A stretch of DNA of 39,157 bases, taken from IMG/VR virus record IMGVR_UViG_3300015264_000037, positions 1 to 39,157 of that record. The stretch is one strand, 5' to 3'. Shown piece by piece: positions 8,493 through 34,422 of the stretch (positions are counted from its first letter, which is position 1; each line of letters begins with the position of its first letter). Below the pieces are notes generated by a model. It saw nothing but the letters and a program-made list of their open reading frames with translations, was not told the origin of the DNA and made no database searches. Position numbers and translations under genes: made by a program. The stretch is from a virus.

Positions 8493-11326
8493 GATTTCTC
8501 CTCTTGGCTTGACCCGCTCTCAAACATGCTTCCCATCATTGTAGCAAGCTTCATAGGTTTGGAGCGGCTTCCGCGTTTGCTTCCACCGGGTGGGGGCGGG
8601 CCAGGTTTGGGACCTTGCGCCGCATACATCTTCTGCTCTTGTTGAATGAGGTCTGCCTGCAGACTTGGGTCAGTGGCTTCGTCGAACAAGATGCCGAGAC
8701 GCACTGCAGTTTGATACGGAACCGGAGTCGTTCGAGAACTGCATGCAAGCTTTATCCGCTGCTGCGCCTCCGCGTAGTATGCCGGGTAGACACTCTTCAG
8801 TGCATCCACTTCTTCCAGTGTCCCATGTCCCTTGAGTACATGGCGGATGATTGAATCCGGTCCACCCTCAACTGCATCTACTGCCCGCAGAAATCCGGTC
8901 ATCGCCGGCTTGCTCACCACGGGCTTCACATTTGGCGTGAGTGAGGGAGCAGCATCCTTGCCCGTGAATCCAGGTGGAAGTTTGGTCCCGAGATAGCGAA
9001 CCGCTGCGGATGCTTTCGTGTTCACCGCAGCGGCTACTTCAGGAGCGTGACCCGAGAGCGGAGCGGTTTGTGTATGGAGGTGCTTGTCGACTGCTTCGGG
9101 GGCCGCAGCCAATGCCGCGATCCGTGTAGCCTCTTTCTCAAATCTTCCGGCGCCAAAGTCGCGCGGCTTCATTGGCACACGCTCATCCTCGGCGCGCCCG
9201 AGTGCGATGTGAATGGCCGAATCTAATTTCCCCATTGAGGAGGCATGCATCTCGCTCAAGCCGCCAAATGTTCCGAGCTTGTCGAGGAGCACGGCGAGCG
9301 TGGCGTTCCCGCGTTGCCGGACCTGATGATGTGCGGCACCGAGGAGCATGCCGCCAATGCCGCCACCGAGCGCGTGCCCTGCAGCTTCACCGGCCATCAT
9401 GCCCATCATTCCCGCGCCATAATCGCTCGGGCTCACCAGACGATTCCGAAGCTTCGCGGTCACGGCATCTGTAGTCACATCGTTGATGAACCGAGTCTCA
9501 GAGTAGCGAGCCTTCGCGGCGAGATATTCACTCTTCCACGCGCCATTGCCAGCCTCTTTGGCGGCCGCCTCGCCAGCGTTCATGATTGAATCTTCGAGCG
9601 TGCGCCCAGCCGCTTTTCGCCCTTGCGCGAGAACAGTATCCGTCTGCCAGTTGATGGTTCCCTCGAGTCCGCGACGTTGTTCCAACAAAGACCGGATGGG
9701 GATTTGAGTATCTCGAATCGGCACGCCTGTCACTTCACCAAGCGGCGCATAAATATTGGCGAGCTCCTTGGCCTTGTTGCGAATCTCCGCAGCGGCCGGG
9801 TTGAATCCCAGACGCCGCTCAAAATCTTTTGCGCGCGCCTCCAGAGAATCAATCACATCGCCAAGCTTCACCCCACTGGACCCGAGCTTATCAACTGTCT
9901 CACTCAAGCCCTCGACCGCAGATGTCTCAGCAACGGATGCCTTCTTCGCGATGTTCTCGATGTTGTCCCCAGCCTCGACGATTCCCTCTGCCCGCAGTCG
10001 ATTTGCAATTCGCCCTTGCGCGTTCTCTCCACCAAATCGGTCTTTCATCTGCTCAAGGAAAGACTTCTTGTTCGCGCTGATGGCGCGAATATATTGCTCG
10101 TCGGCCGCTTCAGAAATCTTCCCACCGCCCGGCAGATGCTCTTGGATGGTGGAGAATGCTTTCCCCAAGAGGGGCTCGGCGGCGCCCATCGCTCCACCGA
10201 GGGCGCCCGCGAGGAGTGCTCCATGGCCAGCCGCCGCGAGGATACCTTCCGCGGTTAGCTCCTTATTTTGGAGTGTGGCATCAGAGACTTCGGCGCCCGC
10301 ACTCCAAAGGCCGCCTTCGACGATTGCCTTTGCCGCTCCCGTGATGGCCTTCTGTCCACTGCGTCGAAGTAGCCCCTCTGCGCCAGTGCCGACCAATTTG
10401 GTCGCAACTTCTCCGGCCAATTCGCCCGCAGCGCCGATGCCCCGCGGCACGCTTCCAAGGATGTCTGCAACACCGGCTTCATCGCCAAACAGCATCGGGG
10501 CGACGGCGCCGGTGATTTCTCCCGCCATGGAGATACCGGGGTTGGCCTCTTGAATCCCTCGGAGATGCGCACGAGTTTTTTCGGCGGCACCTTCCCCACC
10601 AAAAAGCCCCGCTGCTCCAACTGCAAGCGGGTCACTCAGTCCCGCAGTGAGGCCCCGTGCTGCGCCCTCGCCAGCTGCAATGAGGCCGCCGCCAAATCCG
10701 CCGTACTCTTTCTGGAGAGCATGCTTGTTGGCTTCTTCGGCATTTGCGAGACGGCCACCACCTTTGAGAAATGCACTCGCTTGTTCCGCTGGTACCTCTT
10801 TGAGAATCCCTGTCGCCGGGTCGATAAGCGGAACAGAGCTGCCCTTGACCCAACCAAATTTCCCTGAAGCAACAGCAGATGCAGCTTGGCCTGCGGGAAC
10901 ATCATGGAGGCCGCCATCACGCCCAACAAGTTGCACTGTATGGCCGCCAGGAGCCGATGCCGCGGCCATCGAGCCAGCCGTGGGCGGCACATCATCGACA
11001 CCGACACCTGCAGTTGCCGGCTTCCCCTCATAGAGTTTGGCCTGGTCGTTGTGGAGGCTCTCAGCATATTTGGTGGCGGCGTCCGGAGTTGAGAATTTGC
11101 CGAGATGCGCCCCAGTCTTGTGATAGAGGTCAACGGCTTCTTTATTGGAGAGAATCTTTCCTTCGGGTGAGACTGTCGGCACCAAGATTTCGTGCCCACC
11201 TTCGCCGAACGACATCGAGCGAACGGTGGAGATTGTGCCATCTGCATTCTTGACGATGGGGCGGTGGAGTAGGTCGATATTCCCAGCTTCGACGAGCCCA
11301 GAATCTTTGGTGCCAGGAGCCGGCAT
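8489..11326 (-). CDS. Large Gly/Ala-rich internal virion (DNA-ejection type) protein
   Basis: A 945-aa protein. Residues ~15-95 form a compact domain with NADGTISTVRSMSFGEGG and a DAATKYAESLH end, which I know from large podovirus-type virion proteins. Then follow Gly/Ala-rich hydrophobic stretches (~215-400) typical of ejected proteins that insert in the host envelope, long helical charged regions (~400-640), and a Pro/Lys-rich C-terminus. No lytic transglycosylase motif is seen. It starts directly after the stop of the preceding gene (TAA-ATG). Likely a component delivered with DNA; inference from composition and position. Confidence 0.6.
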   Translation of the reverse strand: MPAPGTKDSGLVEAGNIDLLHRPIVKNADGTISTVRSMSFGEGGHEILVPTVSPEGKILSNKEAVDLYHKTGAHLGKFSTPDAATKYAESLHNDQAKLYEGKPATAGVGVDDVPPTAGSMAAASAPGGHTVQLVGRDGGLHDVPAGQAASAVASGKFGWVKGSSVPLIDPATGILKEVPAEQASAFLKGGGRLANAEEANKHALQKEYGGFGGGLIAAGEGAARGLTAGLSDPLAVGAAGLFGGEGAAEKTRAHLRGIQEANPGISMAGEITGAVAPMLFGDEAGVADILGSVPRGIGAAGELAGEVATKLVGTGAEGLLRRSGQKAITGAAKAIVEGGLWSAGAEVSDATLQNKELTAEGILAAAGHGALLAGALGGAMGAAEPLLGKAFSTIQEHLPGGGKISEAADEQYIRAISANKKSFLEQMKDRFGGENAQGRIANRLRAEGIVEAGDNIENIAKKASVAETSAVEGLSETVDKLGSSGVKLGDVIDSLEARAKDFERRLGFNPAAAEIRNKAKELANIYAPLGEVTGVPIRDTQIPIRSLLEQRRGLEGTINWQTDTVLAQGRKAAGRTLEDSIMNAGEAAAKEAGNGAWKSEYLAAKARYSETRFINDVTTDAVTAKLRNRLVSPSDYGAGMMGMMAGEAAGHALGGGIGGMLLGAAHHQVRQRGNATLAVLLDKLGTFGGLSEMHASSMGKLDSAIHIALGRAEDERVPMKPRDFGAGRFEKEATRIAALAAAPEAVDKHLHTQTAPLSGHAPEVAAAVNTKASAAVRYLGTKLPPGFTGKDAAPSLTPNVKPVVSKPAMTGFLRAVDAVEGGPDSIIRHVLKGHGTLEEVDALKSVYPAYYAEAQQRIKLACSSRTTPVPYQTAVRLGILFDEATDPSLQADLIQQEQKMYAAQGPKPGPPPPGGSKRGSRSKPMKLATMMGSMFESGSSQEEKS

Positions 11327-12907
11327 TTACTCCTCATCCTTCTCGGACGAAGACTCAGACCCGCCGCCACTTGGAGCGGCCCCTCCGACTCTCTTGGCGG
11401 CTTCCGCAGCGCTCATACCTCCACGTGCCACCAAAGCTCGGAGGGCATATTTCTGCTTGATGCGCTCCTCCGAGTCGCTCGGCTTGATGAGCAGCGCCTC
11501 GGCCATGTGCTCTTGCGCCTCCGGAGTTCGCGCGCCGAGCTCCTTATGCGCAAATCCCAAAACCGGCGTGTTGGCCGCCTTGATTGCGAGCTCCTTACGC
11601 GCACCTTCAGTCCCTTGAAACAATGGGCCCACACCAGGAAGATGGCTCAATCCCGCAGTAATTCGCTCGCCAACACCCAAAGCTTCTGGGGCATTCTTAC
11701 TGCTCTCGAGAAGGTTCGAATTTGCCAAATCCCCAGCAGCTGGATTGCCAGCATGTCCTGGCTTGACCAATGTGGGTAGTCCCTGCGTGGGCGCCGCGCC
11801 ACGGAGTGCCAGCGCCGCTTGGATGGCCTGCGGCATCGAGACGGCTTGGCCGCTCTTGTAGAGTTCGAACGCGCGTTTCTGGTCCTCAGCGGTGATGCCT
11901 CCCGCGGTGCCACCTTGTTGCCAATGCTCAAGGCCTTGGTGAAGCTTGGCTTGCTCCAACTGAATTTGAGCGCCGAGGTCTTTGGCCCGTGCTTGTAGAA
12001 TCGGCGACTGACTTCGTAGCGCCTCACTTTGCGCTTGCAACTTGAACTGCTCGAGCATCTGCGCTCGCGCCGCCAAATCTGCCGCGCTTTCATCGCCGAA
12101 CTGCTTTATCTTCTGCGCATAAATGTTGTATGCGACTTCGGACTTCTTGCCCTTCTGCACGATGTTCGCCTTCTGCGCGGCGATGTCGTTGTCGACACTC
12201 TTGTTCATCAGGTCGAGTGCTGGATTACCATGCCCCTGACCTTGGGAGAGGCCACCCAAGATGATGCCGATGACGCCGAGCACTTTCTCGCCGGCGTTCT
12301 TGCTCCCCCACCAGCGACCGGGGTCCTCTTTCTGATTTGCAGCTTCGTCTTGCAGTCGCTTGTAATCGTTCATCTGCGCGTCGAGTGCCTCGGTGCGTTT
12401 TTGCCGAGCGGCATTTTCTGCGAACATCTGCTTCCCAAGTTGGGCGGACTGTTGTTCGTAGAGTGAGGCCATCCGCTGATTAGCGGTGTCTTGCGCCGTG
12501 GACTCTTGAGCGGGCACCGCGCCACGTTGTTGCATTGCGGTGTCATATTCGTTGCGGATTCCCGGACTCACCAGCCCAATTGAATGTGCAGGCGTTGTCT
12601 TCTGAGCGGGCAATGCGAAGGCTGGAGCTTTCTCCGCCTCCCCGCCGCTGGGCTGCGTGTCGAAGACACCTTCTGCGCGTGGAGCTCCACCACCTTGGGA
12701 TGCCTGTTCCGGCATCGGAGTGATGGGGCGTGTGAGCTGTTGGCGAATTGACTCCTCACGAGAAGGACCACCGTTGAAGGAGCCCCCGCTTGGGATTTCA
12801 TGCGCCATGGGAGCCGGCGGGGGAGGGCCACCAACTGGTTGTGACTGGTCAAGCCATCCTTGCGCCTGTAATTTCGCAAGGAGATCCGGGTCAATGGGAG
12901 TTGCCAT
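11327..12907 (-). CDS. Putative internal virion protein
   Basis: A 526-aa protein beginning MATPIDPDLL. The first 130 residues are Pro/Gly-rich and disordered. The middle (EKVLGVIGIILGGLSQG then NPALDLMNKSVDNDIAAQKA) shows a pattern I associate with phage internal virion or scaffold-like proteins: a short hydrophobic loop followed by a long Gln/Ala coiled coil to ~330. The C-terminus has SAAEAAKRVGG and an acidic tail. Its ATG overlaps the upstream stop by one base (TGATG). It lies in a block of three huge low-complexity virion genes. No enzymatic motif seen. Confidence 0.6.
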   Translation of the reverse strand: MATPIDPDLLAKLQAQGWLDQSQPVGGPPPPAPMAHEIPSGGSFNGGPSREESIRQQLTRPITPMPEQASQGGGAPRAEGVFDTQPSGGEAEKAPAFALPAQKTTPAHSIGLVSPGIRNEYDTAMQQRGAVPAQESTAQDTANQRMASLYEQQSAQLGKQMFAENAARQKRTEALDAQMNDYKRLQDEAANQKEDPGRWWGSKNAGEKVLGVIGIILGGLSQGQGHGNPALDLMNKSVDNDIAAQKANIVQKGKKSEVAYNIYAQKIKQFGDESAADLAARAQMLEQFKLQAQSEALRSQSPILQARAKDLGAQIQLEQAKLHQGLEHWQQGGTAGGITAEDQKRAFELYKSGQAVSMPQAIQAALALRGAAPTQGLPTLVKPGHAGNPAAGDLANSNLLESSKNAPEALGVGERITAGLSHLPGVGPLFQGTEGARKELAIKAANTPVLGFAHKELGARTPEAQEHMAEALLIKPSDSEERIKQKYALRALVARGGMSAAEAAKRVGGAAPSGGGSESSSEKDEE

Positions 12908-28509: not shown

Positions 28510-28671
28510 CTATGACAAGCGCGCAATCTCCCGCACATCGACGAGACGCCCATTCTCATCGCGGACGATGTCCTCCACTTCCTTGATTCGTGGATGCTCA
28601 CAACAAGCGGTGAGCCGCTGTTGATGGGTGACACATTCCCGGCCGCAGTTGAAACACATCAGCGCATTCAT
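28510..28671 (-). CDS. Small zinc-ribbon-like protein
   Basis: A 53-aa protein from ATG 28671, overlapping the stop of the HTH gene (ATGA). Begins MNALMCFNCGREC. CFNC...C plus a later CC pair suggest one zinc site. The rest is acidic (IKEVEDIVRDENGRLVDVRE). No other feature. It closes the early cluster just before TerS, with 20 non-coding bases between. Confidence 0.55.
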   Translation of the reverse strand: MNALMCFNCGRECVTHQQRLTACCEHPRIKEVEDIVRDENGRLVDVREIARLS

Positions 28672-29165
28672 GCTTTCGGCGCGCCCTTCCTCGGCTTGCC
28701 GAGACCAACATGCCGGAAGAATTTCTTCTCGATGATTTCCCTCAACTTGGGGCCCGGGTTGAACGTGCCTTTCTCGAGGTTGCACATGTGCGGCTGCAGG
28801 ATGTTGAAAAACTCAGCAAATTGCGCTTGCGTATAGCCGAGCTCCAAGCGCTTCTTGCGGAGCATCAGCCCCCACTTCTTGTTGCCATCGCGGCGGCGAT
28901 CTTCTGGCTTCCAACCTTTGGGGCCTCGATTGCTCTTGTACGGCTCCTCCGCCTTCTTCTTCGCCTTCACAACCTTCTTCTTCGGCTTTGCTGTTTTCGC
29001 TGCTTTCTTGGGCGCCAATGCCTTCATCTTGGCGCGATGAGTGTCGCGATATTGTTTCAACTTCTCCGGGTCGCGGTTCTTTTTCGCCGGCGGTTCCGGC
29101 GAAGTCATAGGCGATTCTTCGATTTGAATGTCTTCAGGAATCAACAATAATATTTCGCCGGTCAT
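28668..29165 (-). CDS. XRE-like helix-turn-helix DNA-binding protein
   Basis: A 165-aa protein. Residues 20-95 are Lys/Pro/Ala-rich (histone-tail-like, e.g. AKTAKPKKKVVKAKKKAEE). Residues ~100-150 form an XRE/Cro-type HTH: RKKRLELGYTQAQFAEFF and LQPHMCNLEKGTFNPGP. Likely a transcription regulator or nucleoid-type binder. It sits between the DNA polymerase and packaging genes, a natural place for an early-to-late switch, but targets are unknown. The operator-like sites elsewhere in the window are candidates. ATGA coupling at both ends. Confidence 0.7.
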   Translation of the reverse strand: MTGEILLLIPEDIQIEESPMTSPEPPAKKNRDPEKLKQYRDTHRAKMKALAPKKAAKTAKPKKKVVKAKKKAEEPYKSNRGPKGWKPEDRRRDGNKKWGLMLRKKRLELGYTQAQFAEFFNILQPHMCNLEKGTFNPGPKLREIIEKKFFRHVGLGKPRKGAPKA

Positions 29166-30670
29166 AAATTACTCCACCTGTCACTATATTTTAAATCTAT
29201 AGGTAAAATAAGCTTTCCACCTGCAGTGTCAATAGGTCGAGCCCAAATTTCTGCAATCAAATCGTGGGCCTGATCCACCATATTGTCGGGCACGTCATAA
29301 ATGCAAGCATCGTGCACTTGTGCGACAAGATGTGGGCCGATTGCCGTGGTCGAGAGCTCAATAGTCCGCTCATTCATGACGTCCGCCAGCCCCGATTGAA
29401 TCGGGTAGTTGGCCACATCCGTAATTTTCGGGTACCACCCGAGCCACCGCAGACGCCCGAGAAACGGAGACCGCATGCACCCAAGTCTCTTGACGGCTGC
29501 GAGATTTGCATCCACCCACCGGTAATAGGTGCGGTAAGCGGCATGCAACTTGTCAAGAATGAGGCTCACCGCACTCATCGAGACATCGAATCCCTTGCTT
29601 CGAAGCGTCACGTAGACCTTCTCCATCTCAGCGCAGTAGGAGATGGCAAATCCCAGATTTTTCGCGATGTCGCGGAACTTCTTGCCCCGCGCCGGGTCTT
29701 TGAGGGCAAGCTTGTCATCCAGCCATCCGCGGGCCGCGACCTCGGGGAAGACCGCCTTCGCATTGTTGGCATGCACATCTCCTGTACACGCTGCGATGAA
29801 GTTGGCATCATTTGACAGATAGGCGGCCAAGCGCATCTCCGCCTGACTCACATCGTAGTACACGAATGTATGTCCAGTCCGCGGCACATAAATCTCCCGC
29901 ACCCGACCCTCAGGTGCCCCCGGGGCATATCGCGGCACCGACTGGAAGCGGCAAGAGAGGCGACCGCTCACGGTCCCGAACGGCTTCCAGTTGTAATGTG
30001 CCCGCTGCGTTGTCGGGTTCAATTCCACGGCATCCAAATAAGTGGACTTGATTTTGCCGGCCAAACGCCAAGTCAGGAGAGCGGCCGCAAACGCCGCATG
30101 CTTCTCGTTGCCGCTCATCCGGAGCCCTTCGAGTGTCTCGTTCGCCGTGGACGCTTGTCCCTTCGGTGTGACGATGACATAGCGGGCGCCGAGACTCTGA
30201 GGGCTGAAAAGATGGTGGCGAACGGAGTCAAGCTTGCCTGGCATGAAAGATTGGTCATTCACGATGGCACGGAGCTCACCTTGAAGCTCTTGGCGGCGAG
30301 TGGCCAACAGCTCACTGAGTTCCTGCTTCCGGCCTACGTCCACACCAACCCCAGACCGAATCATCTCGCGACAGACCGCCGCCAACTTCCGGTCATGCTC
30401 ATAGACATGCCGCTCCGATTCGAGGTCACCTTGCATCCGCACCCAACTCTTGATGGTGAGAATGGCGTCGGCGGCATTGTATTTGCAGAGGTCCTCCCCG
30501 CTCAACTGGTCCGGTGTTGTTCCCTTCTCATCCTCGGAGCCGCCCTTGAAGAGACGCTTCCATGGCCGCGCATCCGTGTAGCAGCTGGCGACGTGGTCAA
30601 GCCGCTGCGGCAAATGGGACGCGAACGAGTGGTGGGCGAGAAGCGTGTCATGACAATTTGCAAACTTCAT
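29162..30670 (-). CDS. Family-A DNA polymerase, with the C-terminal part of a split 3'-5' exonuclease
   Basis: A 502-aa polymerase whose start falls inside an exonuclease domain. Residues 1-80 hold DTLLAHHSF and exo III (Y64-xxx-D68 in YNAADA), but exo I and II lie in the separate gene at 30834-31802. Polymerase motifs: SGRLSC (~235-240); motif A YYDVSQAEMR (D273, E278); motif B R333...K337...F341...Y345 in RDIAKNLGFAISY; motif C QVHDA with D454. Two departures: YCA where YG is usual, and HDA where HDE is usual. Both catalytic Asp are kept, so synthesis is likely possible. ATGA-coupled to the 56-aa zinc-ribbon gene. Confidence 0.85.
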   Translation of the reverse strand: MKFANCHDTLLAHHSFASHLPQRLDHVASCYTDARPWKRLFKGGSEDEKGTTPDQLSGEDLCKYNAADAILTIKSWVRMQGDLESERHVYEHDRKLAAVCREMIRSGVGVDVGRKQELSELLATRRQELQGELRAIVNDQSFMPGKLDSVRHHLFSPQSLGARYVIVTPKGQASTANETLEGLRMSGNEKHAAFAAALLTWRLAGKIKSTYLDAVELNPTTQRAHYNWKPFGTVSGRLSCRFQSVPRYAPGAPEGRVREIYVPRTGHTFVYYDVSQAEMRLAAYLSNDANFIAACTGDVHANNAKAVFPEVAARGWLDDKLALKDPARGKKFRDIAKNLGFAISYCAEMEKVYVTLRSKGFDVSMSAVSLILDKLHAAYRTYYRWVDANLAAVKRLGCMRSPFLGRLRWLGWYPKITDVANYPIQSGLADVMNERTIELSTTAIGPHLVAQVHDACIYDVPDNMVDQAHDLIAEIWARPIDTAGGKLILPIDLKYSDRWSNL

Positions 30671-30837
30671 TCAAGGTCTCGACGCAAATTATCAATGTAC
30701 TCCCAGCAAAGACAAATCTCGGTATATTCGCCACCAGAGTTGTCAAATTCAACGATTACACCTTCATAGCCACATTTATCACATTTAGAGTTCAACCGTT
30801 CGCGAATACAACCACCACCCAAGTCTATTTTCTTCAC
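30667..30837 (-). CDS. Zinc-ribbon micro-ORF inserted between the two exonuclease halves
   Basis: A 56-codon GTG-started frame (KKIDLGGGCIRERLNS...). It has two Cys pairs, CDKC and CLC with intervening CG, giving a probable zinc ribbon (C19, C22, C42, C44 and C10). GTG overlaps the UDG stop as GTGA, and its TGA overlaps the polymerase ATG as ATGA. It is AT-rich relative to both flanks. The bases TGAAG occur at each junction. It separates exo motif II from exo III in what is normally one protein. Function unknown; see findings. Confidence 0.65.
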   Translation of the reverse strand: MKKIDLGGGCIRERLNSKCDKCGYEGVIVEFDNSGGEYTEICLCWEYIDNLRRDLE

Positions 30838-31802
30838 CACACTACCCCATGGCTCTCAAGCACCAGCAAATCGAAATTCTGCCCGTTGTGGAATACCACC
30901 GAACCGCAGGTTCCTAGCCAACGCCCAACGAATCCGGAATAATCATCATCCCAGGGCCAAATCTCCACCACGGCGCCCTTCTCATCAGCAAATCCAATGC
31001 TGAGGATGTTGCACTCGAGCGGCTTGATGCCGTCAGTCTCGATGTCGCAGCTGATGGCTCCGACCTTGTGGAGCCGCTCGAGAACCTCGGGGCTTCCGAC
31101 GCGATAGTTACACTCATCCTCAAATGGCGCCGTCACTTCTCCGCGCACAACTCGACCGGCCCGGCGGAAATCAAGTTCGGAGATGGGCTTCCACGTGTCA
31201 GCCCGCAGCACGAAAGCAGGGTGGATGCTTGGCAACACGATGCGGCCTGCAATCTTCTGACGGCCACGCAATATCTCGCCGCGAAGGATGTCCTTCTTGA
31301 AAGCAGCCTTGACTACTTTCTCCTCAATTTCGGGGGCGGTCCAAATAAATCCACGAGCCGTAAGAATATTCCGTACTCCAAGACTTGAGCGGGCTGCTGT
31401 CTTGCCCAACGCCAGAATTGGAGCTTCTCCAGACAGCGCAACAATCTCGTTGAGGAGCCTCGGCGCGCAACATTCGGCGGCACGTTCATTGTCGTCGTCG
31501 CTTTCTCCGCGGCATAGGGCTGCATTGGTGATGTGGCAGTTGTTGCGTGGAATCTTGGCATCTCGTCGCAATCGCTCATCGAGGAACTTGCCGCTCAGTC
31601 CAGAGAAAGGAATGCCAAGCTTCTCCTCGACTCGCCCCGGCCCTTCGCCCACCACCACCAGCCGAAGTGTGTCCCTGGACGGCTGCGGCGGCACGACGGT
31701 GTTGCCCGCCAAAGGGCAGAGGTCACACCGGGCACCGTGGGCTGGGGCATCATAGAGGACGGCGGCCTCCGGGAGGGTGACGGGAGATTTAAGAGGGGTC
31801 AT
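30834..31802 (-). CDS. Family-4-type uracil-DNA glycosylase fused to N-terminal half of a 3'-5' exonuclease
   Basis: A 322-aa protein. UDG part: C26-x2-C29, C97 and C111/C112 for a 4Fe-4S cluster; GEGPG (52-56) leading to GIPFSGLSGK; NAALCRGE; and IHPAF (H194-P195). It removes uracil from DNA. From ~245 begins a DnaQ-like exonuclease: exo I D253-I-E255 in CDIETDG and exo II HNGQNFD (D311). The protein then ends at 322, where such domains normally continue to exo III. ATG 31802 is used; a TTG at 31829 would overlap the upstream stop. Neither has a good ribosome site. Confidence 0.8.
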   Translation of the reverse strand: MTPLKSPVTLPEAAVLYDAPAHGARCDLCPLAGNTVVPPQPSRDTLRLVVVGEGPGRVEEKLGIPFSGLSGKFLDERLRRDAKIPRNNCHITNAALCRGESDDDNERAAECCAPRLLNEIVALSGEAPILALGKTAARSSLGVRNILTARGFIWTAPEIEEKVVKAAFKKDILRGEILRGRQKIAGRIVLPSIHPAFVLRADTWKPISELDFRRAGRVVRGEVTAPFEDECNYRVGSPEVLERLHKVGAISCDIETDGIKPLECNILSIGFADEKGAVVEIWPWDDDYSGFVGRWLGTCGSVVFHNGQNFDLLVLESHGVVW

Positions 31803-31825: not shown

Positions 31826-32014
31826 TCAATTTGGGTTCCGGGCAACTGCGGTGAACCAAGCCGAAAAATATCGGCCCTGCTGAATGCGGAAAGATTCCTC
31901 TCGCTCCTCGCGCTCACGGCACATCTTTTGATAAACTGGGCGCGCCAAATCCAGTGCCATCTCTAGACCTTCTACTGTACAGAGATGATTATCATATTTA
32001 TAAAATATGTCCAC
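31826..32014 (-). CDS. Small hypothetical protein
   Basis: A 62-aa protein with a GTG start at 32014, preceded by AGAAGAGGG at good spacing. It begins with an aromatic segment (DIFYKYDNHLC) followed by a charged helix (YQKMCREREEREESFRIQQG). No domain recognised. It is the first gene after the 280-base non-coding block and lies just upstream of the UDG gene. AT-richer than most neighbours. Confidence 0.6.
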   Translation of the reverse strand: MDIFYKYDNHLCTVEGLEMALDLARPVYQKMCREREEREESFRIQQGRYFSAWFTAVARNPN

Positions 32015-32040
32015 TTATCCCTCTTCTAAATAAATAGAGT

Positions 32041-32295
32041 GGCTGTTGTCATTTAGCTTGCCACTAGCTGGGCGTGAACGTGGACAACTCACGACCGGGC
32101 TCGAACACCACATTCCCGGTAAGCCCTCAGAGTCGCCGTCTCTGGTGTGGTGGGCTATGTTGAAGGGTCTTATACAGACTCGGCGGATGACGTGTGCACG
32201 CGAAACCGCTTACTGATGCCCGGTGCCACTTGTCGGATTCGCACCGCACTGAGGTTCATCACCTCGACTACAGCGTCGCTGCTCAGTGGCCAAAC
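32041..32295 (-). ncRNA. Candidate structured RNA with a cloverleaf-like module
   Basis: About 280 bases without a convincing gene (32015-32295). On the minus strand, 32224-32290 folds on paper as a cloverleaf: terminal stem GCCACT/AGTGGC (6 bp), then CAGC-GAC-GCTG, GAGG-7 nt-CCTC and CGG-TGCGAAT-CCG. The last two have 7-nt loops and the third resembles a T-arm. U33 is absent from the middle loop and the D-like loop has 3 nt, so it is not a canonical tRNA. A second hairpin, CAGAG-7 nt-CTCTG (32128-32144), is enclosed by ACACCA/TGGTGT, and ACCGGG/CCCGGT (32094-32120) is an alternative stem. No known RNA family recognised. Confidence 0.35.
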
Positions 32296-32403
32296 TCACA
32301 ATTTATCTTTAACACTATTTTGCCAAATGGCAATCAAATTAATCGCGAGCACCGATAATATTGCTCCAATAGGCGGCCCAAGAAGTGCAACGTACCAGGG
32401 CAT
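32296..32403 (-). CDS. Micro-membrane protein (35 aa)
   Basis: ATG 32403 overlaps the upstream TGA by one base (TGATG). The peptide begins MPWYVALLGPP and is a single hydrophobic helix (GAILSVLAINLIAIW) with a short polar end (QNSVKDKL). One membrane span, no Cys. Coupling and clean composition favour a real gene; the size allows chance. It is the last gene before the structured non-coding block. Function unknown. Confidence 0.5.
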   Translation of the reverse strand: MPWYVALLGPPIGAILSVLAINLIAIWQNSVKDKL

Positions 32404-32639
32404 CATAGCCGTGACTTGCTTCCGCGGTTTTCGAGGCAATATTTGCAGAGGCACAAGTCTTCTTCCGACTTTGGGCGATGTGTGACGGCTGCAAGCGCCT
32501 CAATAAGCCGCAATTCTTCGATGGGCGCCTCGAGCGGTGTCTCCAACCGGCGTACAAGTTTGGCGCACAAATTGGCTGCTGCAGCCAACACCTCACGAAC
32601 GCGGGGGTCCGGAAACTGGGGATAATCTTCAGGTTTCAT
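32403..32639 (-). CDS. Hypothetical protein, paralogue of the next gene upstream
   Basis: A 78-aa protein beginning MKPEDYPQFPDPRVREVL. Its first ~55 residues match the protein at 32636-32833 in layout (PEDYPQFPDPRV/YPEDFPGVDDSKV, AANLC/AVNLC, LVRR/VSRR, LIEALAAV/LAEALVAI). It adds a C-terminal CLCKYC that could hold zinc. The ATG overlaps the paralogue's stop (ATGA), consistent with a tandem duplication. Mostly helical. Function unknown. Confidence 0.65.
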   Translation of the reverse strand: MKPEDYPQFPDPRVREVLAAAANLCAKLVRRLETPLEAPIEELRLIEALAAVTHRPKSEEDLCLCKYCLENRGSKSRL

Positions 32640-32833
32640 TTGCGCCCCGGGCCACTGCAGCTAAAGGGGATGGCTACCAGCGCCTCCGCAAGCTCTTGCT
32701 CTCGGCGCACAATCTCAGAGGGCAATGAGTCAGCCCGGCGAGACACAACTTCACAAAGATTCACCGCGGCCACCAAGGCCGCCTTCACCTTCGAGTCATC
32801 AACACCGGGGAAGTCTTCAGGGTAGCGCTTCAT
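32636..32833 (-). CDS. Hypothetical protein, paralogue of the next gene downstream
   Basis: A 65-aa protein from ATG 32833, beginning MKRYPEDFPGVDDSKV. The start overlaps the lipoprotein gene stop (ATGA); a longer upstream frame is Arg-rich noise. Shares its helical core with the 78-aa neighbour but lacks the C-terminal Cys cluster, ending CSGPGRK. Function unknown. Confidence 0.6.
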   Translation of the reverse strand: MKRYPEDFPGVDDSKVKAALVAAVNLCEVVSRRADSLPSEIVRREQELAEALVAIPFSCSGPGRK

Positions 32834-33156
32834 TTGGTTGCCCCTGGCAGCGGCATGAACATCACGAACCCGGGGTTGACGCAATCGGCGGTTGCCTGCG
32901 CGCCGCCTTCGACTTCCTCCCACTGGATGGGGACAGTAGTGATCTGCTCGTTCCAGTGAGAAGCGTCATGGGAAACTGCAACTGTCGAGAGCGCAAGGTC
33001 TCGGACTCGAGCGCCGGAGAACGTGGCGGTTACCTGCAGCGTCTCTGAACAGTCCACTCGAACTGGAGTAGACATCGACTGGGGCGAAGACTCTTGCCCG
33101 GAAGCGGCGGTGCAACCGGAGAGTGCGACCAAAACTGCAACCAGAAAAGTTTTCAT
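32830..33156 (-). CDS. Predicted lipoprotein in the early region
   Basis: A 108-aa protein with an N-terminal signal (MKTFLVAVLVALSGC) ending in the lipobox LSGC (C15). The mature domain is beta-rich with two more Cys (VDCSE and ADCVNPG) that could form a disulfide. Predicted periplasmic, membrane-anchored. It is far from the lysis cassette and embedded in coupled early genes, so a role at the envelope of the infected cell, such as blocking a second phage, is possible (inference). Confidence 0.6.
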   Translation of the reverse strand: MKTFLVAVLVALSGCTAASGQESSPQSMSTPVRVDCSETLQVTATFSGARVRDLALSTVAVSHDASHWNEQITTVPIQWEEVEGGAQATADCVNPGFVMFMPLPGATK

Positions 33157-33494
33157 AGCGTCTCCAATGCTTTGGTCAAATGTGCCCGAGCAAGCTCAAC
33201 ATAGCAATTATTTAGGCCGCTTCTTTGTGCCAAAGAAAGCTGATCATCTGCTCGGCGCGCCAGCAACTGCACTTCGACAAGGCGAGTCTCGAGGGCGGCT
33301 ACCCGCTGCGCAACCTCGGTTAGGTGGAACGAGATGGGCGCATCCAGGGCGCTTGGCTCCTCGAGGGCATCAATCTCCGAGAGCGGCTCCTCTGGCCCTC
33401 CTGGTGTCACATCCACCGGAGCATGTAGATGCAACGGACACCTCAAAGGCTCCGAGAGCGGCCGCTCACACTCAGAGCAAAAATAACTGTTCAT
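33153..33494 (-). CDS. Hypothetical protein with N-terminal zinc-binding cysteines
   Basis: A 113-aa protein beginning MNSYFCSECERPL, with CSEC and a further C at 19 (RCPLHLH) suggesting a zinc site. An acidic linker follows, then a helix from ~60 (EVAQRVAALETRLVEVQLLA) to the C-terminus. ATGA overlaps with both the micro-membrane gene upstream and the lipoprotein gene downstream. Function unknown. Confidence 0.65.
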   Translation of the reverse strand: MNSYFCSECERPLSEPLRCPLHLHAPVDVTPGGPEEPLSEIDALEEPSALDAPISFHLTEVAQRVAALETRLVEVQLLARRADDQLSLAQRSGLNNCYVELARAHLTKALETL

Positions 33495-33604
33495 TTGAAC
33501 ACCTCTTCTAGAATCAGCACGATGATAAATGTCAACCCCACAACAACGAACCCCACCATTGCTGAGTCAAGCAAGAGTCGACTCCCGCCCCTTCGTTTTT
33601 GCAT
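33491..33604 (-). CDS. Micro-membrane protein (37 aa)
   Basis: Starts MQKRRGGSRLLLDS, then a single membrane helix (MVGFVVVGLTFIIVLILEEV) near the C-terminus. Its TGA overlaps the ATG of the zinc protein downstream (ATGA), typical of true genes here. It overlaps the 42-aa gene upstream by 38 bases in another frame. No clear ribosome site; reinitiation is plausible. Function unknown. Confidence 0.5.
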   Translation of the reverse strand: MQKRRGGSRLLLDSAMVGFVVVGLTFIIVLILEEVFK

Positions 33605-33695
33605 GAACAAGCTTACCGCGACGAGGTGCCCGGGGCATGGCCGGCGGCGCAGGCTTCCGAGGATTCTTGTAAATGACATGAACAACTGTAACCAT
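33567..33695 (-). CDS. Small basic protein (42 aa)
   Basis: A 42-aa, Arg/Lys/Pro-rich protein beginning MVTVVHVIYKNPRKPAPP. Its ATG has a strong site, AGAGGAGAA, 5-13 bases upstream, which is the main support for a real gene. The charge suggests nucleic acid or protein binding. A stable hairpin (33723-33738) lies between it and the gene upstream. Function unknown. Confidence 0.55.
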   Translation of the reverse strand: MVTVVHVIYKNPRKPAPPAMPRAPRRGKLVHAKTKGRESTLA

Positions 33696-33722
33696 TTTGG
33701 TTCTCCTCTGCGGTCGCCCGCT

Positions 33723-33738
33723 GCCCCCTTTCGGGGGC
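33723..33738 (-). promoter_or_regulatory. Stable GNRA-type intergenic hairpin
   Basis: On the minus strand GCCCCC-GAAA-GGGGGC forms a 6-bp all-GC stem with a GAAA tetraloop. It lies between the stop of the 61-aa gene and the 42-aa gene. It is not followed by a U run, so it is more likely an mRNA stabiliser or processing site than a factor-independent terminator. Confidence 0.5.
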
Positions 33739-33746
33739 CATCTGAT

Positions 33747-33932
33747 TCAGCAGTTGGCGAAGATGGGGTCTTCGAGGTCAAGGTCCCACACCTTGACTCG
33801 GCACCCTTCGGCGGCGAGGCGGCGGCCCTCTGTCAGGGCGCAGCCCTTGTTGCTGCTGCGGCCGAAGGTCTGGCTCGAGCCGTCATGGTTGATGGTTACG
33901 ATTTCGAAGGACTTGTTGTCGGCGAGGTTCAT
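33747..33932 (-). CDS. Small hypothetical protein with its own promoter
   Basis: A 61-aa protein beginning MNLADNKSFEIVTINHDGSS, with GRRLAAEGCRVKVWDLD near the end; it looks like a small alpha/beta unit. A promoter with -10 TATAGT ends 7 bases before its ATG and no Shine-Dalgarno is present, so a leaderless transcript is possible. The repeat array upstream (33953-33993) suggests regulation. Function unknown. Confidence 0.65.
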   Translation of the reverse strand: MNLADNKSFEIVTINHDGSSQTFGRSSNKGCALTEGRRLAAEGCRVKVWDLDLEDPIFANC

Positions 33933-33939
33933 AAGAGAG

Positions 33940-33993
33940 ACTATATCTCAGATATTTGAGAGCGCAAGGTCAATCTCAAATAAATCTCAAATA
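33940..33993 (-). promoter_or_regulatory. Promoter with operator-like repeat array
   Basis: Minus strand: -35 TTGCGC (33967-33962), 16-base spacer, -10 TATAGT (33945-33940). Upstream, TATTTGAGATT occurs twice in perfect tandem (33993-33983 and 33982-33972). An inverted partial copy, TCTCAAATA (33961-33953), lies in the spacer. The first repeat overlaps the last codons of the upstream gene. The arrangement looks like an activator or repressor site set; binding protein unknown. Confidence 0.5.
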
Positions 33994-34271
33994 TCTCTCC
34001 CGACCCCCAACCGCCGAAGCAAATCCTTCAACAGCTTCGCTTCCGCTTCGGTCCGGTCTCGGGAGATAGCGTGAAGCCGATGCTCATCCAGAGGGGGCCC
34101 CTCCCAAGCTGCCTCATAAACTCCATAAGCGCGGCGAACATGCAGATGGCGGAGACCACCGACCTTCTTGTCATACTGCTCACCAGCTGAGTGCAACGAG
34201 AGAGGAGCCGACTGGAGCGGAGCGTTGAGCAGGCGAGAACGGTTGCTCTCAGGCTTGACGCTGTCGCTCAT
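33987..34271 (-). CDS. Hypothetical protein
   Basis: A 94-aa protein from ATG 34271, with GAGGAGG in front. Begins MSDSVKPESNRSRLLNAPLQ. N-terminal half is polar; the middle has VRRAYGVYEAAWEG and the end is helical (EAEAKLLKDLLRRLG). No domain recognised. Overlaps the upstream gene by 23 bases. Confidence 0.6.
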   Translation of the reverse strand: MSDSVKPESNRSRLLNAPLQSAPLSLHSAGEQYDKKVGGLRHLHVRRAYGVYEAAWEGPPLDEHRLHAISRDRTEAEAKLLKDLLRRLGVGRDI

Positions 34272-34422
34272 TGGGCCACCTCCTCTTAGTGCTGGGCGGC
34301 CCCTCGAGGTCATTTAGGACATCGTCCACGTCGATGGGGATTCGCACGACGAGGGGCACGTGGGCTCGAGGCGTCTCCGGCGCTACGTCGGCGGGGTTGG
34401 TGCTGTCAAACAGAAGGGGCAT
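34249..34422 (-). CDS. Small hypothetical protein
   Basis: A 57-aa protein from ATG 34422, with AAAGGA upstream. Begins MPLLFDSTNPADVAPE and is Pro-rich with a central beta-like run (VPLVVRIPIDVDDVL). Overlaps the DUF3310-like gene by 17 bases and the next gene by 23. No motif recognised. Could be an anti-host peptide or a spurious frame kept open; two overlaps and a ribosome site favour a gene. Confidence 0.5.
   Translation of the reverse strand: MPLLFDSTNPADVAPETPRAHVPLVVRIPIDVDDVLNDLEGPPSTKRRWPNERQRQA

Follow-up and report, generated by a model that had tools for sequence, protein, structure and literature searches.

The window, meaning the whole stretch of DNA that was analysed, is the IMG/VR virus record IMGVR_UViG_3300015264_000037, 39,157 bases from an uncultured virus. 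Profile matches reveal a terminase large subunit and a portal protein, and judged from this gene content the virus is a tailed phage. On the minus strand a gene encoding UDG, exo I and exo II (hereafter the N gene) is followed by a 56-codon ORF and this in turn by a gene encoding exo III and the polymerase (hereafter the C gene). The features of the locus are the following:

30834..31802, minus strand: N gene, UDG with exo I and exo II, 322 aa, ending with W322
31194..31673, minus strand: UDG domain, residues 44-203 (Pfam PF03167, E=1.6e-19)
31038..31046, minus strand: exo I motif, D253-I-E255
30870..30890, minus strand: exo II motif, HNGQNFD (D311)
30834..30837, minus strand: GTGA overlap of the N-gene stop and the middle-ORF start
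30667..30837, minus strand: middle ORF, 56 aa, GTG start, CDKC and CLC (CxxC...CxC)
30667..30670, minus strand: ATGA overlap of the middle-ORF stop and the C-gene start
29162..30670, minus strand: C gene, exo III and a complete family A polymerase domain, 502 aa
30467..30481, minus strand: exo III motif, Y64-N-A-A-D68
29852..29854, minus strand: polymerase motif A aspartate, D273 (YYDVSQAEM)
29309..29311, minus strand: polymerase motif C aspartate, D454 (QVHDA)
28668..29165, minus strand: HTH regulator-like gene, joined to the polymerase gene by an ATGA overlap

The N-gene product ends in ...SHGVVW and the C-gene product begins with MKFANCHDT. The N gene matches the UDG superfamily profile PF03167 above its cut-off and so belongs to this superfamily; its assignment to the family 4 type is not certain, because the score against TIGR00758 (E=1.8e-20, 73 bits) lies under the 125-bit cut-off. 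A UDG preceding the 3'-5' exonuclease domain in a phage family A polymerase fusion is also found in many uncultured relatives. The UDG of poxviruses, D4, acts as a tether; by analogy, the fused UDG may serve either in repair or as a tether of this kind. The C gene matches Pfam DNA_pol_A (PF00476, E=4.7e-33) and contains motifs A, B and C, with D273 and D454 aligned. The DxE of exo I, the D of exo II and the YxxxD of exo III are all present in the window, but they are spread over two genes, which are out of phase with each other. The middle ORF has a GC content of 41% as compared to 56% for the genome. Its CxxC/CxC spacing makes it a candidate zinc ribbon; with this short query of 56 aa, nothing in Pfam, PHROG or NCBIfam matched significantly, and no homologues were found at E<=1 in phage records or in 17 related virus records. 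An earlier note, made from the letters of this DNA, had described UDG, exo I and exo II followed by a stop, exo III and all polymerase motifs in the second gene, an AT-rich ORF with CDKC and CLC in between, and GTGA and ATGA links between halves out of phase. Each of these observations was confirmed.

Close relatives of the window were obtained from IMG/VR (L001, L002, L003, L004 and L006; Pol 69-78% identical to the window). All five records are cut at the very residue where the window is (...GV[VS]W / MKFAN.HDT): the first gene ends in HGVVW throughout the close group except for HGVSW in L006, and the second gene starts with MKFAN.HDT. Every member of the group uses GTGA and ATGA. The content of the gap, however, changes. 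It is the 56-aa CxxC ORF in the window, an ORF of 86 aa in L001/L002, a hydrophobic one of 29 aa in L003/L004 and one of 81 aa in L006, and these four are mutually unrelated; the 81-aa and 86-aa ORFs found no matches among phages. In each of them the linked frame is open and the other two frames contain stops. Letter shuffling puts the probability of such an open frame at 0.014 for the window, 0.016 for L001/L002, 0.33 for L003/L004 and 0.05 for L006. TGAAG, reported by the earlier note at both junctions, is found there in the window and in L006, but is absent from L001/L002 and L003/L004; it was therefore rejected as a target-site duplication. The RTGA overlap is the only junction feature constant across the close group. 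Neither in L006 nor in the more distant L033 is the C-gene start preceded by a Shine-Dalgarno match, which fits translational coupling. Recurring as it does in its relatives, the split in the window is, on the compared sequences, more than chance. Exo II and exo III in separate genes without the 56-aa ORF, an arrangement that the earlier note had set against its own proposal, is thus the state of the close relatives.

Altogether the sampling is small and comprises about 12 distinct lineages, nearly all of them uncultured; a scan of bacterial genomes returned a distant PolA as its sole match. The same domain order and motifs are found in a single ORF in L021, L027, L024, L041, L044 and the annotated ctSAF950 and ctsm1931 (MW202622.1, MW202658.1); L023, which goes with L024, and L019 are unsplit as well. 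These homologues continue uninterrupted across the cut site. A comparison with the intact fusion, proposed by the earlier note, was run with the fused protein of MW202622.1, which aligns end to end with N plus C, no residues being lost at the cut. The unsplit homologues likely represent the ancestral state. In two further arrangements the gene is split with nothing between the halves: in L031 the second frame is +1 and the stop is TAA, and in L026 and L030, which come from two metagenomes and are identical over 12 kb, the junction is TGATG and the frame -1. L033 carries a single 102-aa ORF of phrog_18063 in the joint, whereas the joint of L026 is empty, the polymerase DNA of the two being 88% identical. 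In L032 (2980-3992) four small ORFs, mostly ATGA-chained, occupy the joint; the first belongs to phrog_2831, the second weakly to phrog_1311 and the third to phrog_18063, and a search with the first gave no matches among phages. Inserts thus range from less than 100 bases to approximately 1 kb (L032). The family phrog_18063, present in the two joints of L033 and L032, elsewhere forms free-standing small genes (VarioGold VG_p31, Mx1). The idea of a new kind of small mobile insertion, raised by the earlier note, does not agree with a gap that holds zero to four unrelated ORFs depending on the lineage, whose ends have nothing in common apart from the start/stop overlap, nor with a cargo that other phages carry as an ordinary gene on its own.

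On a tree calculated from 15 concatenated N+C sequences, in which the long branches of L019, L032 and MW202622 call for caution, the split state requires two changes. One split group consists of the window, L001, L003, L006, L031 and L032 (support 98/99.7); the other, L026 and L033, groups with the unsplit L024 (85/92). A single origin, with all split members in one clade, was rejected (p_AU 0.0038). The two changes together with this rejection indicate that the same loop was cut at least twice, or was cut once and then re-fused in one lineage. Both halves are under purifying selection: for the pairs with a usable dS, which is saturated in most, dN/dS amounts to about 0.1-0.2 for N and 0.05-0.12 for C, and the close pair L003/L004 gives 0.14 for N and 0.10 for C. 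With the cut at the same residue in five related records and an omega of about 0.1 in both halves, the earlier view that the split is settled holds.

Structure models place the cut in a loop. In the AlphaFold2 model of the fused protein of L044 (mean pLDDT 77) it falls in a coil (330-336) that connects the exo II helix (319-329) to the strand 337-340. From residue 229 to its end this model matches the Klenow fragment of E. coli DNA polymerase I and the Bst large fragment (Z 29-32), which have the same exonuclease-like and polymerase fold but, unlike the window, consist of one chain without UDG. When the second half of L026 was modelled alone, its exo stretch 1-56 had a pLDDT below 50, whereas the corresponding residues of the fused L044 model reach about 50-80; the low value of the lone fragment could stem from a shallow alignment.

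We consider it probable that the locus encodes a proofreading UDG-PolA stably divided into two chains at a loop, and that the joint is an ordinary operon boundary which gains and swaps accessory genes. A UDG-exonuclease-PolA fusion gene would have been cut behind the exo II helix, in the loop leading to the following strand, without loss of residues, so that the phage would now make two chains, one with UDG and exo I/II and the other with exo III and the polymerase. From the kept catalytic residues, the purifying selection and the models of fused and lone halves we infer that the chains most likely associate and together restore the exonuclease domain; the product would be a proofreading polymerase of two subunits that carries a UDG. 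N and C together would accordingly be expected to have exonuclease activity. The joint would have turned into a start/stop-overlap boundary like any other, and unrelated accessory ORFs could therefore enter and leave it. Since they start on the RTG of RTGA and end on the TGA of ATGA, the second half would remain translationally coupled to the first through them. That the joint acts like any operon boundary is suggested by the frequency of four-base overlaps (a mechanical count reads 20 of the 64 neighbour junctions in the window as such), by the varying length of other junctions between conserved genes (terS-like to g92, 1 to 335 bases; g92 to g138, 193 to 682 bases) and by the run of small ORFs directly upstream of the N gene (31859-34313), mostly without counterparts in related virus records, which appears to be a variable early region. 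On the other side of the locus, homologues of the HTH regulator-like gene sit after Pol in five of the five close records.

A stronger version, in which the joint is a recurrent gene dock, appears rather doubtful to us. The cut, made at least twice in the same loop on this view, would then be favoured because it allows proofreading or the UDG to be separated or adjusted, and the small coupled genes would set how much of the polymerase half is made or would influence replication.

Loss of proofreading, a possibility listed in the earlier note, would make the split the mark of a decaying exonuclease and the polymerase exo-minus. The C gene alone has a complete polymerase domain, and the Pfam exonuclease model stays below threshold on the N half as well as on the C half. 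Against this, the exo I, exo II and exo III catalytic residues are kept across the two chains in every split member, including those of the N half, which would otherwise be free to decay past the UDG, and N and C are both under purifying selection. We regard this explanation as unlikely.

Less likely again is a three-part enzyme, in which the gap protein is a bridging or regulatory subunit joining the halves. The window gap ORF could bind zinc, and four-base overlaps always link it to both halves. The halves can nevertheless hardly be joined through the ribbon protein as the earlier note had proposed. Relatives with this cut have no ribbon there: the close ones carry proteins that resemble neither it nor one another, among them the hydrophobic 29-aa peptide, and in L031 and L026/L030 the unchanged cut has no gap protein at all. 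The protein of the window has no homologue in the 17 related records. It is therefore no required bridge in the group. The ribbon ORF would rather be a replaceable passenger than a part of the enzyme, the CxxC ORF being the one that the window virus presently carries; this cargo without relatives may still have a function tied to the polymerase.

It is very improbable that the insert is removed or skipped to give one chain, by self-splicing RNA, an intein, translational bypass or frameshift. Admittedly the cut is clean with no residue missing, group I introns are frequent in phage polymerase genes, and the Pol of L033 has an intein-like insert elsewhere. However, the window and five relatives gave no Rfam match and the inserts are short, unrelated and without shared features; a group I or II intron was rejected on these grounds, in line with the earlier note. 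Every insert is open in the linked frame with the start/stop overlaps retained, and no intein motifs were found at the end of the N gene. The empty joints differ in phase, -1 in L026 and +1 in L031, so there is no common frameshift, and a programmed one was rejected. An assembly or sequencing artefact, conceivable since the records are uncultured metagenome contigs, has practically no probability left and is already refuted for the group, as contigs assembled independently from several metagenomes share the junction and L026 and L030 are identical over 12 kb.

Two further observations concern the polymerase domain itself. In L026 (5804-7369), L030 and L033 (9414-12035) the motif C segment RIVAQIHDAAIIEF stands directly before motif A (LFYYDLSQ) and motif C is missing from its usual place, so that the order is C-A-B. 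The segment is identical to that of L044 at 11 of 14 positions. The order is seen in two identical contigs from different metagenomes (L026, L030) and in a third that is 88% identical (L033). An AF2 model of the C-only polymerase of L026 (pLDDT 78) still matches Klenow (Z 28). C-A-B is the motif order of permutotetravirus and birnavirus RNA polymerases. The permutation in this family A polymerase can be likened to that of these RdRps (PMC4666646); our literature search found no case of a family A polymerase with C-A-B order. This polymerase is possibly more interesting than the split itself and merits its own study. In addition, the polymerase domain of L033 is interrupted in frame, at about 10764-11822, by an intein-like insert of 353 residues (CLDEDTEAL...FITGN/T). 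This insert is flanked by ..TDVSN and TPIQGG.. and is absent from the near-identical L026.

Divided phage polymerases have been described before. In the OM43 phages MEP401 and MEP402 and their relatives PolA is spread over two ORFs separated by a small unknown one, and the authors asked whether the interruption is an intron, which they could not tell (PMC10580990; OP830906). The likeness to the window is one of architecture, a family A polymerase as two ORFs with a small ORF in between. In the MEP401 type it is the polymerase domain that is cut, and the description mentions no UDG. In the window it is the exonuclease domain, relatives have another gap ORF or none, and unsplit homologues are known. 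In jumbo phages the Pol III alpha subunit is split (PMC7824862), again a replicative polymerase in two chains, of an unrelated family and with an unrelated cut. No account of a T4-type split gp43 was found in our literature search. What is new here is that the cut falls in the exonuclease domain, that a UDG is part of the fusion, that fused and empty intermediates exist and that the content is swapped.

With this locus, nature has set up a fragment-complementation experiment on a proofreading polymerase of replication: the exonuclease active site is divided over two chains, relatives have the unsplit form, and the change apparently took place at least twice. The tolerance and subsequent exploitation of gene fission by phages become directly testable. 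Moreover, the small ORFs that interrupt polymerase genes in other phages may likewise be passengers that are exchanged at a coupled joint and not introns.
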